Source: an uncultured Saccharofermentans sp. (lineage in GTDB: Bacteria; Bacillota; Clostridia; Saccharofermentanales; Saccharofermentanaceae). From it: DNA of 39,511 nucleotides. The stretch lies in the NCBI GenBank assembly GCA_905234715.1, contig CAJOJI010000033.1, positions 1 through 39,511 on the forward strand, given 5' to 3'. The notes under the pieces are model-generated. The model had not been told where the DNA came from. It ran no database searches and saw only the letters and a list, made by a program, of their open reading frames with translations. Made by a program: the position numbers and the translations under genes. Shown one piece after another: positions 31,424 through 38,610 of this stretch (its first letter is position 1; each line of letters begins with the position of its first letter).

Positions 31424-32392
31424 TCAGTTGTACTGTTCGTTATCGTTTCTCTCGAAAACCCTGAGTTTTGAACTGCGGGATCTCGGATTGATGTCGATCT
31501 CTTCCTGCGTCGGTTCGATCGGTTTCTTTGTTATTACCGTTCCGAGTGACTTCTTGCCGCAGACACATACAGGGAAATCTCTCGGACATGTGCACGGGCT
31601 CTCTGCCGTTCTGAACGCTTCTTTTACTATTCTGTCTTCGAGCGAATGGAATGTGATTATCGACATTCTTCCGCCCGGTTTAAGTCTTCTTATTCCGTCC
31701 TGAAGAAGTGTTTCAAGGCCGTCAAGCTCGTGGTTTACTTCGATTCTTATAGCCTGGAAGCATCTCTTTGCAGGATGCTGGTCCTCGCCTCTGCCGTGAC
31801 CCGGCATATATTCCTTGATAGCTGCAGCGAGTTCTGTCGTTCTTGAGAAAGGCTTTGTTCTTCTTCTCTCAACGATGCCGTCTGCAATTCTGCCGGCGTG
31901 ATGCTCTTCTCCGTATTCTCTGAAGATCCTCTCGAGATCGTCTCTGGAATATCTGTTAACTACTTCAGCAGCAGTGAGCCATTCGTTAGGATCCATTCTC
32001 ATATCCAAAGGACCGTTCTTCATATATGAGAAACCTCTCTCAGCCGTATCGAGCTGATATGAGGAGACACCAAGATCAGCCATGATGCCGTCGACCTTGC
32101 CGATCTTAAGGCTGCGGATGATATCATCGATATCTTTGTAATCGGATTTAACAGGCATCCAGTCGATGCCGGCAAATGCTTCTCTTCTTTCCATGCAGGC
32201 TGCAAGCGCTGCGTCATCCTTATCGATGGATACAAGGATGCCCTGCCCTTTCATTCTGCGTGCGATCTCGGCACTGTGGCTTCCGCCGCCTGCCGTACAA
32301 TCGACGTAGACTCCGCCCGGTCTGACGTTCAGTGAGTCAACCGTGGGATAGAGCAATACCGGGATGTGGTCAAAATCAGAGACCTTCAACAT
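31424..32392 (-). CDS. rsmH: 16S rRNA (cytosine1402-N4)-methyltransferase RsmH (MraW)
   Basis: HIPVLLYPTVDSLNVRPGGVYVDCTAGGGSHS; GILADLGVSSYQLD; ITFHSLEDRIVK. Confidence 0.96.
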   Translation of the reverse strand: MLKVSDFDHIPVLLYPTVDSLNVRPGGVYVDCTAGGGSHSAEIARRMKGQGILVSIDKDDAALAACMERREAFAGIDWMPVKSDYKDIDDIIRSLKIGKVDGIMADLGVSSYQLDTAERGFSYMKNGPLDMRMDPNEWLTAAEVVNRYSRDDLERIFREYGEEHHAGRIADGIVERRRTKPFSRTTELAAAIKEYMPGHGRGEDQHPAKRCFQAIRIEVNHELDGLETLLQDGIRRLKPGGRMSIITFHSLEDRIVKEAFRTAESPCTCPRDFPVCVCGKKSLGTVITKKPIEPTQEEIDINPRSRSSKLRVFERNDNEQYN

Positions 32393-32807
32393 AATACTTC
32401 GTCTCCAATCCTTCTATGCCGCTTAAGTCGTGATCTTCGTTGTCATAGAAATTCTTTGTACAAATATCTAATTTACCGTCGTCGTTAAATACGCAGATCT
32501 CGTCGCCGGGCTTAGCGCCGATCCTGTCCCAAAGCTCGCTGTTAACGGAAATACGGCCCTGCGAATCAACGCTGACTTCACAAGCCTCACCAACGATCGC
32601 TCTCTTGATCTTACGCGCATTGGCATCCATCGAATTGAGCTTTGCGAGTTGTGTCTTTACCACATTCTCAAAATGATCCTTTGAGTAAACGCACAAATAG
32701 CCGACATCAAGGCTGTTTGTTACCACAACCTCTGCGCCGAGCAATTCTTTCTGCTTTGCAGGGATGAAAAATCTTCCCTTAGCGTCTACTTTCTTAATGT
32801 CTCTCAT
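32376..32807 (-). CDS. mraZ: Transcriptional regulator MraZ (start likely MRDIKKVDAKGRFFIP)
   Basis: Two SpoVT/AbrB-like halves, DAKGRFFIP and DSQGRISV. Confidence 0.93.
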   Translation of the reverse strand: MRDIKKVDAKGRFFIPAKQKELLGAEVVVTNSLDVGYLCVYSKDHFENVVKTQLAKLNSMDANARKIKRAIVGEACEVSVDSQGRISVNSELWDRIGAKPGDEICVFNDDGKLDICTKNFYDNEDHDLSGIEGLETKYYVEGL

Positions 32808-32869
32808 TCTGAGTCTCTTACAAGCTTGATTTATGCGATGTCGGAGGGTATCATTGCTGAAATCAGCCA

Positions 32870-32918
32870 CTTTCCTCCACCAGAGTGGGAAATATCTCCC
32901 CAAATCACCACACAGTTG
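32870..32918 (-). promoter_or_regulatory. Candidate MraZ-box operator region
   Basis: Minus strand GTGTGGTGATTTGGGGAGATATTTCCCACTCTGGTGGAGGAAAGTGG: clustered TGG(G) elements upstream of mraZ. Confidence 0.4.
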
Positions 32919-33271: not shown

Positions 33272-33637
33272 ATGGCTAAGTTTGTTTTATCAGAAGCAAA
33301 GAGTGGGTTCAAATTCAATCTTGTTGCAAGCAACGGTGAGGTTATCGCTTCCAGCCAGGTTTACAAGTCTGCAGCAACAGCTAAGAAGGGTATCGCATCC
33401 GTCGCAGCTAACGCAGCAGTCGCAAACATCGAAAATCAGACCGAAAAAGACTTTAAGCCCGTAGCAAATCCGAAGTTCGAAGTTTACAAGGACAAGAAGG
33501 GCGAGTTCCGTTTCCGCTTAAAGGCTAAGAACGGCCAGATCATTGCAACCGGTGAAGGTTATTCCAAGGTTGACAGCTGCCTTAAGGGTGTCGCATCCGT
33601 TAAGAAGAATGCAGTTGGAGCAAAGTTCGAAGGATAA
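33272..33637 (+). CDS. DUF1508 (YegP-like) protein, two tandem repeats
   Basis: Internal duplication: KFVLSEAKSGFKFNLVASNGEVIASSQVYKS / KFEVYKDKKGEFRFRLKAKNGQIIATGEGYSK; RBS AGGAGG. Confidence 0.88.
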   Translation: MAKFVLSEAKSGFKFNLVASNGEVIASSQVYKSAATAKKGIASVAANAAVANIENQTEKDFKPVANPKFEVYKDKKGEFRFRLKAKNGQIIATGEGYSKVDSCLKGVASVKKNAVGAKFEG

Positions 33638-34312: not shown

Positions 34313-36580
34313 TTATCTTACCTCATTAAATTCAGGATAAGATGGAATGGCGCCCGGTCTTTGGACGCTGATAGAGCAATAGCGGTTTGCAAAATCAAGG
34401 CACTCCGAAATGACATCAGGCGGACAGGAAGCAAGGTCTTCCCTGCTGATGCCGAGCGTCTTAAGCTTCCAAAGGAACGATCCTATAAATGCATCGCCCG
34501 CGCCGGTCGTGTCAGTGGCTTTTACCACTGGTCCAACGGAATCGACACATCCGCATGAATTAACTGCACACGCACCGTCCTTGCCTTTGGTAAGTATCAC
34601 GAGCTTTACGTTGCCATTAAATAGCAGCGGAAGCGCTTCATCGAAATCAGCCGTGCCTGTAATATATTCAAGTTCCTCATCTGAGATCTTGAGGATGTCG
34701 CAGTCAGGAAGGAATTCCCAAATGACTCGTTTAAGTTCATCCCTGTCATCCCAGAGCATAAATCTGAGATTAGGGTCGAAGCTTATTATCGCGCCCTGTC
34801 TTCTCGCAATCGCTATGGCAGTACGGTGCGCATCTCTCATGGGGAAATCGCCGAGAGACACGCTGCAGAAATGAAGCGCATAGCAGTTATCGAGCATATC
34901 TCCCGTAACTTCTTCGGGAGCGAAAAGCATATCGGCAGAAGGATTCCTGTAGAACGAGAATACCCTGTTGCCGTCTTTGGCAAGGCTAACGAACGCGAGA
35001 GCCGTATTAGCTTCGGAAGTATAACTTATATAAGAAGTATCAACACCTGCATCGTTTAAAGTCCTAGTGATGACATCACCAAAAGGATCTTTTCCGAGTT
35101 TGGTGATCATGCGTGATTTGCCGCCGAGCTTTGAATAAGCGGCAGTAACATTGGCAGGCGCACCTCCAGTCGCAGGAGAGAATGCACCGACCTCATAGAA
35201 TTCGCAGCCCGTCTTATCCGGAATAAAATCAATGAGCGCTTCGCCGATCGCAACAAGAGTATCCTTAAGTCTTAGTGCCGAAACTTCAGCAGAAGCACCA
35301 CTTACGGCAACACGCACCTGCTTATACTCAGGATAGAATCTGGTGCTCATGACATACATGCCGTCGTTGATATAAATTTCCAATGAAGAAATATCCGCAA
35401 TGACTTTAATGTCAGTAAGGTTATCAATTTTAATCTTTCTAATACTTCTTCCGAAGCCTTCATCGTTAGTAAACTGAAGACTGAAAACGCCGCAAGATTT
35501 ATCCCACCTGATCTCAGCACCTGAAACAGATACGCACACATCAGCAGAACAGGATGAAACATTGAGTTCAAAAGGAAGGCCTTCCCATGCTTCACCTTCA
35601 ACACTCTTAACAGAAGTCTTAAGTTTATCGAGTTCTCTTAACGGCTTTTGAATAAGTTTGCCGTCATCTGATACTGAAAGTTCACGCGGCAATGTAAGGC
35701 AGTGCTGCCATCCGAGATCAACTGTGGGATTGGAATAAGAATCGTCGCCGATGCCCATCCAGCCGATAAGAAGTCTTCTTCCGTCAGGCACAGTGAATGT
35801 CTGCGGAGCATAGAAATCAAAACCGTAATCGAACTCTTCGAAACACCCAAGAGCATCACCGTCAAATGTATAGTATCCGCTCTGGAACAGATTCTGGAAT
35901 CTGAATTCACCCTGAGGGATTCCCTGCGGACACATTGCAAGAAACTTTCTTCCATCAAGTTCAAACAGCTCGGGACACTCCCACATGTAGCCCATATTAG
36001 GAGCGGAAAGACAGCCTTTGTATTCAAGCGAATCAACAGCAGTTCCTTCGTATAACAGAACGCATCCTTTATCGTCTTTGGTCCTTGCACCGAGAACCAT
36101 CTTATAGATGCCGTTTTCGAAACTTACTTTGGGATCTCTTACGTGGCATGAGCAAAACGAAGGATAGTCACTGTTTCTGAGGAGAACCTTTTTCGCAGAC
36201 ATTTTCGAGCCGTCAGAAGAAGAGACATGGATAACATTTGCGCCGCGGCCGGTAAGCACATAATCGTGATCGCCTTCTTCCATAACATTGCCCGTATAGA
36301 AGAATTCGACATGGTCGTCAAACGTGACTGCAGAACCGGAGAATACTCCGTCTTTATCTTCGGGAATGTCGGCATCAAGAACAACGCCTTTGTATTTCCA
36401 TGAAAGAAGGTCTGAACTTACATAGTGGCCCCAGCGCCTTGTACTCTCACCTTTGGGAGTGCCGGGTGAATACTGGAAATAGACATGGTAAAAGCCGTCA
36501 AAAAAGCACAGTCCGTTAGGGTCGTTCATCCATCCTTCCGGAGGTTCGATATGAAGATGCTGTCTCCATTTGCCTTTCAT
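34313..36580 (-). CDS. Fusion protein: N-terminal GH32 sucrose-6-phosphate hydrolase plus C-terminal PfkB fructokinase
   Basis: GH32 triad motifs WMNDPNG, RDPKV, ECPELF; then LVAIGEALIDFIP...GGAPANVTAAYSKLGG...ATDTTGAGDAFIGSF in one uninterrupted 755-aa frame. Confidence 0.93.
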   Translation of the reverse strand: MKGKWRQHLHIEPPEGWMNDPNGLCFFDGFYHVYFQYSPGTPKGESTRRWGHYVSSDLLSWKYKGVVLDADIPEDKDGVFSGSAVTFDDHVEFFYTGNVMEEGDHDYVLTGRGANVIHVSSSDGSKMSAKKVLLRNSDYPSFCSCHVRDPKVSFENGIYKMVLGARTKDDKGCVLLYEGTAVDSLEYKGCLSAPNMGYMWECPELFELDGRKFLAMCPQGIPQGEFRFQNLFQSGYYTFDGDALGCFEEFDYGFDFYAPQTFTVPDGRRLLIGWMGIGDDSYSNPTVDLGWQHCLTLPRELSVSDDGKLIQKPLRELDKLKTSVKSVEGEAWEGLPFELNVSSCSADVCVSVSGAEIRWDKSCGVFSLQFTNDEGFGRSIRKIKIDNLTDIKVIADISSLEIYINDGMYVMSTRFYPEYKQVRVAVSGASAEVSALRLKDTLVAIGEALIDFIPDKTGCEFYEVGAFSPATGGAPANVTAAYSKLGGKSRMITKLGKDPFGDVITRTLNDAGVDTSYISYTSEANTALAFVSLAKDGNRVFSFYRNPSADMLFAPEEVTGDMLDNCYALHFCSVSLGDFPMRDAHRTAIAIARRQGAIISFDPNLRFMLWDDRDELKRVIWEFLPDCDILKISDEELEYITGTADFDEALPLLFNGNVKLVILTKGKDGACAVNSCGCVDSVGPVVKATDTTGAGDAFIGSFLWKLKTLGISREDLASCPPDVISECLDFANRYCSISVQRPGAIPSYPEFNEVR

Positions 36581-36592
36581 GACAAGACCCCG

Positions 36593-37717
36593 TCAGGTGT
36601 TCCGCGACATCGAAATGTTGAGGATAACCCCGAACGCCAGATAATTGATCAGCATTGCCGTACCTCCGTAACTGATGAAAGGAAGCGGGATACCTGTGAT
36701 GGGCAGAAGACCTACGGCCATGCCCATGTTCTCGATATAGTGGAATGCAAAGTATCCGGTAAATCCGGTAAGCATGTACGAAGCAGATTTGGAAGGAACC
36801 TTTGCCGCAACGTAAAGACATCTGCAAAGGAAGAAAAACGCAAGGATTATTACGGCAGTCGTGCCGATGAATCCCATGTGTTCCGATATGGCAGCGAAAA
36901 TGAAGTCACTCTCCTTAACCGGAACGCTAGTAAGGATTCCCGTATGGTTACCGGTAAGACCACCTGAAGCGATGGCAGCTTTGGACTGCATCAGGTTATA
37001 CTCCGAACGCGGGTCGGAACCCTGGAATACGAGTGATAAGATTCTGTCCTTCTGGTAAGGCTTTAAGTAGAAGAACCATACCGCAGGAACTACGATTACG
37101 ACGAATGATGAGAATGCAAGAAGGAAGTATCTGTAACGAACACCCCATGTAAAGAGCATGCATACGAAAGTGAATATGATAACCATCGCCGTACCGAAGT
37201 CAGGCTGTGCAAGGATGAGGAGCATCGGAGGCGCATAAACGGCAGCCATGATGCCGAATCCCTTGAGCATTGTATATTCCTTGTTGTGCATCGACTCGAA
37301 AATATCGGCAGCCACCATAATAAGTCCGATCTTTGCGAGCTCGGAAGGCTGGAAGTTACCGATGATAGGAAGATTGAGCCAGGAATCCGCACCCCATGAT
37401 GCAGCGAGAGAATAACCGTCGATAGGAACGAGTATCAAAAGGAAAAGTGACGCAGCATAGATGATACGTCCTACGATCTTAAGGAGATGTTCATCGAGCA
37501 AACTGATGATGAGAGCGCCGATGATACCTCCGACCGTTGCAACTATCTGTCTGTAGTAGTTACCGGGATATGCAGCGTATCCTTTTGAGAGAACTTTCTG
37601 AAGAACGTAAAGGCCGATTATCGTCATTGCCAATACGGGCACGACAAGATAATAGTCGACGGTCTTAAGACCGTCTTTCCCGCGAAGTCTTACAACGCCG
37701 GAACCAGCCTTATCCAT
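36593..37717 (-). CDS. rodA: RodA-type SEDS glycosyltransferase
   Basis: Multi-TM SEDS protein; ITGIPLPFISYGGTAMLINYLAFGVILNI. Confidence 0.9.
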   Translation of the reverse strand: MDKAGSGVVRLRGKDGLKTVDYYLVVPVLAMTIIGLYVLQKVLSKGYAAYPGNYYRQIVATVGGIIGALIISLLDEHLLKIVGRIIYAASLFLLILVPIDGYSLAASWGADSWLNLPIIGNFQPSELAKIGLIMVAADIFESMHNKEYTMLKGFGIMAAVYAPPMLLILAQPDFGTAMVIIFTFVCMLFTWGVRYRYFLLAFSSFVVIVVPAVWFFYLKPYQKDRILSLVFQGSDPRSEYNLMQSKAAIASGGLTGNHTGILTSVPVKESDFIFAAISEHMGFIGTTAVIILAFFFLCRCLYVAAKVPSKSASYMLTGFTGYFAFHYIENMGMAVGLLPITGIPLPFISYGGTAMLINYLAFGVILNISMSRNT

Positions 37718-38610
37718 TATTTCTTCTTACCTTCTCCTGCGCCTTCTTCAGCAAAGAGCTTCTTGGGGAAACCCTTCTTCTCGAATCTCTTGGTTCTTGC
37801 ATAAGCAATATAGATAAGAGCAGCAATAACAAAGATCAAAGAAAGGAGCTGTGAGATCCTGATGGATGTGTGACCGATGTAAAGAGAATCTGTTCTCATT
37901 CCTTCGATGAAGAATCTTGCTGTTCCGTAAAGTGCGAAATATGCGCATGAAGTCTCGAAAGGGATCTTCGAATGCTTTCTGATGTACATCAGGATGAAGA
38001 AGATGGTGAGATCTGCAAGCGACTCATATAAGAATGTCGGATGAACGGGCATTGTTGAAACAAGAGTCGGGCACTCGGTTACAAGGTAGCTCTGAACTGT
38101 TGAGCTTGTCATACCCCACGGAAGTGTGGTTGTTGTACCGAAGCACTCCTGATTGAAGAAGTTGCCCCATCTGCCGATAGCCTGTCCCAAAGGCAGATAA
38201 ACTACGCAGTAATCGGCGAGTTCTCTGAAAGGGATCTTTCTGACGCGGCACATGACAATTCCGCCGATGAATACGAGGATAACGCCTCCGTAGATTGCAA
38301 GTCCGCCGGATCTAAGATCGAAGATGGCCTTTAAGTTCTTGCCGTAGTAATCCCAGTTGCATGCTACGAAGTATGCTCTGGCGCCGATGATGGCACAGGG
38401 GATTATCATGAGGATCGTATCGTAAACAAGTCCTTCAGGGAACTTGAGGCTCTTTGCCTGCTTAACTGCGAGAATAACGCTAATTACAAGCGCAGCAGCT
38501 ATCAAAAGACCGTACCAGTAAACCTCAATGTTTCCGATAGTGAATGCAACCGGATTAACATTCAGAGTCCATCCCAGTCCCGGGAACTTAACTTCAACGT
38601 AATTTATCAT
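37717..38610 (-). CDS. lgt: Prolipoprotein diacylglyceryl transferase
   Basis: IEVYWYGLLIA, RSGGLAIYGG, GRWGNFFNQECFG, HPTFLYES. Confidence 0.95.
   Translation of the reverse strand: MINYVEVKFPGLGWTLNVNPVAFTIGNIEVYWYGLLIAAALVISVILAVKQAKSLKFPEGLVYDTILMIIPCAIIGARAYFVACNWDYYGKNLKAIFDLRSGGLAIYGGVILVFIGGIVMCRVRKIPFRELADYCVVYLPLGQAIGRWGNFFNQECFGTTTTLPWGMTSSTVQSYLVTECPTLVSTMPVHPTFLYESLADLTIFFILMYIRKHSKIPFETSCAYFALYGTARFFIEGMRTDSLYIGHTSIRISQLLSLIFVIAALIYIAYARTKRFEKKGFPKKLFAEEGAGEGKKK

Follow-up and report, generated by a model that had tools for sequence, protein, structure and literature searches.

A fused GH32-PfkB gene behind rodA in an uncultured Saccharofermentans sp. and its probable role as a PTS-independent sucrose hydrolase-fructokinase

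The window analyzed in this study is a 39,511-nucleotide stretch of DNA (contig CAJOJI010000033.1) from an uncultured Saccharofermentans sp., a gut bacterium. The genome is 97.6% complete and consists of 174 contigs. The locus contains one gene encoding a glycoside hydrolase joined to a sugar kinase, together with its neighbors, as follows.

34313..36580, minus strand: fused GH32-PfkB gene of class I (no PTS), 755 aa (Pfam, genus census)
35264..36580, minus strand: GH32 half, residues 1-439, with catalytic domain and C-terminal beta-sandwich domain (Pfam, Foldseek); motifs N19/D20 (NDPNG), D149 (RDP) and E201 (ECP)
34313..35263, minus strand: PfkB fructokinase-like half, residues 440-755 plus the stop codon (Pfam, Foldseek); motifs GGAPAN and DTTGAGD
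35240..35290, minus strand: junction region, in which a linker is absent
36593..37717, minus strand: rodA, upstream of the fusion and a conserved neighbor of the class I fusion
37717..38610, minus strand: lgt-like gene, next upstream of rodA, also a conserved neighbor; named from sequence
32376..32903, minus strand: mraZ-like gene, named from sequence, which begins a division and cell-wall cluster

The fused gene, whose strand the preliminary description did not state, starts with ATG and is read without interruption on the minus strand; the corresponding plus-strand frame contains many stops. Three Pfam domains exceed their curated cut-offs: GH32N (residues 9-312, 254 bits), GH32C (357-436, 31 bits) and PfkB (440-748, 190 bits). 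The domain boundary at residue 439/440 corresponds approximately to positions 35263/35264, close to the junction near 35257 proposed in a preliminary description. Because the GH32 and PfkB domains meet within a few residues (approximately 436-440), the fusion has no linker. Moreover, no in-frame ATG, GTG or TTG is available as a kinase start in the junction. The gene begins 12 nt past the stop of rodA, in agreement with the position given earlier, and the order lgt-rodA-fusion-(mraZ) is repeated in close relatives, in most of which an mraZ-like gene is the downstream neighbor. In the interval separating mraZ from the fusion, the other strand (33272-33637, plus) encodes a 121-aa protein with two DUF1508 repeats. 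No transporter was seen near the fusion in the window.

The single 755-aa frame was borne out by comparison across the genus. The same frame was found in 39 of 85 genomes, with identity down to 54%; this count leaves out G456, which carries two genes, and the copy in G493 is truncated where its contig stops. Many of these relatives were deposited under the name Saccharofermentans sp. A stop or frameshift at the junction had been named as a possible weakness, and independent assemblies read through the junction in one frame. In the GH32 half, the NDPNG, RDP and ECP motifs, which include the nucleophile and the acid/base residue, are present on a propeller plus beta-sandwich fold (Pfam GH32N/GH32C, Foldseek), and N19, D20, R148, D149, P150, E201 and C202 are invariant in all 45 copies examined. 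The kinase half carries the N-terminal GG motif and the DTxGAGD motif (D690-D696); D690, T691, G693, A694, G695 and D696 are likewise invariant (45/45), and T692 differs in two copies. Purifying selection acts on both halves and on the junction, with pairwise dN/dS values of 0.07-0.17 (GH32), 0.03-0.09 (kinase) and 0-0.18 (junction). Thus, the motif sets described earlier are both intact, and the conserved motifs and dN/dS rule out a dead domain. The AlphaFold2 model of the fusion has a pLDDT of 91.6 and a pTM of 0.86. Its GH32 half matches the GH32 enzymes 7vco, 6nu7 and 1uyp in Foldseek, and its second half matches the fructokinase 3lki (TMt 0.90). This confidently modeled domain arrangement is compatible with the putative substrate channeling suggested in the preliminary description.

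The preliminary description had called the first half a sucrose-6-phosphate hydrolase, a name that the data do not favor. Profile searches for PTS enzyme I (PF05524) and EIIC (PF02378) gave no match in the window's genome, and both profiles found their targets in PTS-bearing controls such as E. coli and B. subtilis. In the absence of detectable enzyme I and EIIC, sucrose-6-phosphate is unlikely to arrive by the usual route, and with the usual phosphate-linked sucrose importer missing, the fusion probably acts on plain sucrose. Against TIGR01322 (sucrose-6-phosphate hydrolase), the fusion scores 345.9 bits, narrowly missing the cut-off of 356.4. Additionally, the fusion differs from PTS-linked copies at two marker residues. 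In GH32 enzymes, the position of Lys74 of the L. gasseri sucrose-6-phosphate hydrolase holds Lys in a PTS-linked cluster and Met in a mainly ABC-linked cluster (PMC7833758, Table 3). By alignment, this position is residue 48 of the fusion, and the window protein has Arg48 and Phe80. At position 48, Lys occurs in every PTS-linked copy, and Arg occurs in 28 of 33 class I copies. Position 80, which came from a column scan for group differences made with no prior prediction, is Tyr in every PTS-linked copy and Phe in most PTS-less copies; elsewhere, the L. gasseri enzyme has Tyr and the B. longum beta-fructofuranosidase has Phe. A PTS state was assigned to 30 rows of the tree; Lys48 and Tyr80 co-occur in all 11 of the PTS-linked rows and in none of the 19 that are PTS-less. 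The association comprises three phylogenetically independent contrasts, none opposed, which are too few for significance. This pattern supports, without proving, a shift from sucrose-6-phosphate to sucrose, and Arg48 retains the positive charge, so phosphate binding may persist.

For the kinase half, the score against the fructokinase model NF006957/PRK09434 is 207.1 bits, below the curated equivalog cut-off of 450, so its substrate may be another sugar. The nearest solved structures are fructokinases, which offers a lead toward a predicted phosphorylation of fructose. The other PfkB matches in the genome are weaker than the fused kinase, and two ROK kinase loci are present; the fused kinase is hence the best, not the sole, fructokinase candidate. 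A second protein with only a GH32N domain (349 aa; contig C7, L111:4564-5613) carries GNPCG at the NDPNG site and IESP at the IECP site; similar short GH32 proteins in L048, L050, L052 and L053 retain the motifs. The C7 protein is probably not a normal hydrolase, which leaves the fusion as the only GH32 found in the genome with intact motifs. In another genome of the genus (G006, L106:7352-9079), an N-terminal NUDIX domain is fused to GH32 in a 575-aa protein with intact GH32 motifs and no adjoining kinase partner.

To place the fusion in the genus, we compared the arrangement of GH32, kinase and PTS genes. Split and adjacent GH32 and kinase genes occur in 11 of 85 genomes. Enzyme I was found in 15 of 85 genomes; it lies beside a fused or split pair in 10 and beside a lone GH32 gene in G015. 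In six genomes (G012, G030, G461, G463, G488 and G501), the fused gene is beside ptsI, and in five of these scrA is upstream, the contig of G501 beginning at the gene. By contrast, enzyme I was not detected in 32 of 39 fused genomes, including the window's, several of which are 97-99% complete. The fused genome G493 has an unlinked partial enzyme I match, which may be contamination. Pfam scanning of ten neighbors of PTS-less split pairs (G466, G489, G456, G471 and G473) found sensor kinases, a lipase-like protein and other unrelated genes, with no transporter (0/10), which argues against an ABC transporter among these neighbors. In G471 (L159/L160) and G473 (L161/L162), the GH32 and kinase homologs are on separate contigs and apparently unlinked. 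The preliminary description had considered the substrate supply unclear. This is right for the window, and relatives suggest PTS loss as the reason: in a sister lineage the fused gene has PTS genes on both sides, and these are missing here. No sucrose transporter adjoins the fusion, and none was identified with confidence.

Among the relatives, overlapping but separate scrB and scrK genes lie in scrA-scrB-scrK-ptsH-ptsI operons. In the six split pairs examined, the GH32 and kinase genes overlap by 8-11 nt, and the kinase starts at a TTG within the GH32 tail behind a GGAGGT-like site. The ribosome-binding-like site, the stop and the TTG start are all missing from the window's junction. In G456 (L147:4752-7016), the GH32 and kinase genes share a frame and have a TGA and a few bases between them, which is close to the expected look of a pre-fusion state. 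G012 and G030 show the order lgt-rodA-(two small genes)-scrA-FUSION-ptsH-ptsI, and in the window's lineage only the fusion is left behind rodA. Class II fusions (with PTS) retain an in-frame kinase ATG; in contrast, class I fusions (no PTS) have neither the ribosome-binding-like site nor a start codon for the kinase. A concatenated tree resolves three groups, namely, fused without PTS, fused with PTS, and split. Its topology calls for two changes, either two separate fusions or a fusion and a re-splitting, but a single clade of fused genes was not rejected (p-AU of 0.156 and 0.113). We infer the direction of change from a root placed with split outgroups (L028 and L029).

Collectively, the results point to a sucrose hydrolase-fructokinase that is cytosolic, independent of a PTS and derived from ScrB and ScrK, a reading to which we assign a probability of roughly 70%. 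Its substrates, cytosolic location, coupling of the reactions and order of events are what we infer from the comparisons above. The GH32 half would release glucose and fructose from sucrose, or from a short beta-fructoside. Using ATP, the PfkB half would then phosphorylate this fructose, yielding fructose-6-phosphate. The ancestor would have been a PTS-type scrB-scrK pair, at first overlapping and probably translationally coupled, that was then joined in one frame. The sucrose PTS (scrA, ptsH and ptsI) would have been lost, so that the hydrolase would now meet unphosphorylated sucrose. A fuller account, in which the fixed domain arrangement speeds the transfer of fructose, the PTS-linked pair was joined before the PTS was lost, and an opposite-order fusion arose convergently elsewhere, is in our judgment unlikely as a whole.

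The closest competing account concerns the origin of the fusion and not its substrate. The joined gene might be a neutral result of gene overlap and an indel, with both enzymes working and no coupling or channeling between them; we put this just short of even odds, and it can coexist with a PTS-independent sucrose hydrolase-fructokinase, for which channeling is not needed. The split genes already overlap, so a small stop-removing indel would join them, and split forms survive in the same genus. Nevertheless, the fusion has been kept in 39 genomes that diverge to 54% identity, class I has neither a linker nor an in-frame kinase start, and Bacillota show at least two such joining events, one in each domain order; a neutral origin would still be compatible with all of these features. 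An artefact of assembly or frameshift would be conceivable for a genome in 174 contigs; however, 38 further genomes share the single frame, the junction is conserved and dN/dS is low, so that its probability is negligible, and the independent assemblies rule out an assembly artefact.

Two further accounts differ in the substrate. A true sucrose-6-phosphate hydrolase-fructokinase, with its PTS genes in the unassembled part of the genome, would agree with the ancestry shared with PTS-linked ScrB, the near-threshold TIGR01322 score and the still basic Arg48. We consider it improbable, because enzyme I went undetected in 32 of 39 fused genomes, including nearly complete ones, EIIC was not detected in the window's genome, and both Tyr80 and Lys48 have been replaced (by Phe and Arg). 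Somewhat less improbable, and still doubtful, is a main substrate other than imported sucrose, either a short fructo-oligosaccharide or sucrose derived from raffinose by an alpha-galactosidase. Several GH32 enzymes accept kestose (PMC7833758), and a GH36 alpha-galactosidase gene adjoins an MFS_2 transporter gene on contig C98 of the window's genome; raffinose taken up by this transporter and cut by GH36 would be a candidate source of sucrose. However, this GH36 gene looks frameshifted, GH36 also occurs in fusion-less genomes, and it was not found in the fused genome G009. Its two overlapping frames (L139:5360-7784) correspond to a single frame of approximately 810 aa in relatives, and the C98 copy reflects either decay or an assembly error. 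Because GH36 is spread across the genus, a role as the specific partner of PTS-less fusions was rejected. A PTS-independent enzyme acting on sucrose remains our preferred reading.

The genus appears to hold a full series, from split genes in a PTS operon, through fused genes in a PTS operon, to fused genes without a PTS. This series offers a way to test how an enzyme for a phosphorylated substrate adapts to the plain one upon loss of its importer, and whether there is a benefit in joining enzymes that act in succession. The case also advises caution, since homology alone is insufficient for annotating such proteins as sucrose-6-phosphate hydrolases.

Beyond the genus, a search of 398 genomes of the phylum gave nine candidates that were read, of which one was a confirmed fusion (G301, L134:2542-5031); the apparent fusions in G310, G199, G430, G260, G420, G381, G367 and G359 were not real on reading. 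The G301 protein is a PfkB-GH32 fusion of 829 aa with the kinase first. It adjoins a second GH32 gene and lies near likely sugar ABC transporter genes, named from sequence and gene order. Its reverse order indicates at least two separate fusions of the GH32/PfkB pair in Bacillota. We found no prior description of such a fusion in the open-access literature searched.

Compared with known systems, the fusion resembles ScrB (GH32, TIGR01322; 6nu7) in fold, motifs and probable ancestry, and its near relatives lie in PTS operons; in contrast, it falls under the TIGR01322 cut-off, has Arg48/Phe80 for Lys/Tyr, carries an attached kinase and has no detected PTS. With the GH32 beta-fructofuranosidases (3pig of B. 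longum and 1uyp of T. maritima), it shares the catalytic motifs and, as in 3pig, Phe80, whereas it has Arg48 where the B. longum enzyme has Met and bears the kinase. By structure and by sequence, the C-terminal half is matched best by ScrK fructokinases (PfkB; 3ljs/3lki and 5ey7), with which it shares DTTGAGD; however, the kinase of the fusion is joined to GH32 and scores under the curated PRK09434 cut-off. Finally, the G301 protein likewise combines both domains in one polypeptide with no PTS gene recognized nearby, but its opposite order, distant sequence and different genus within the same phylum mark it as a separate fusion.
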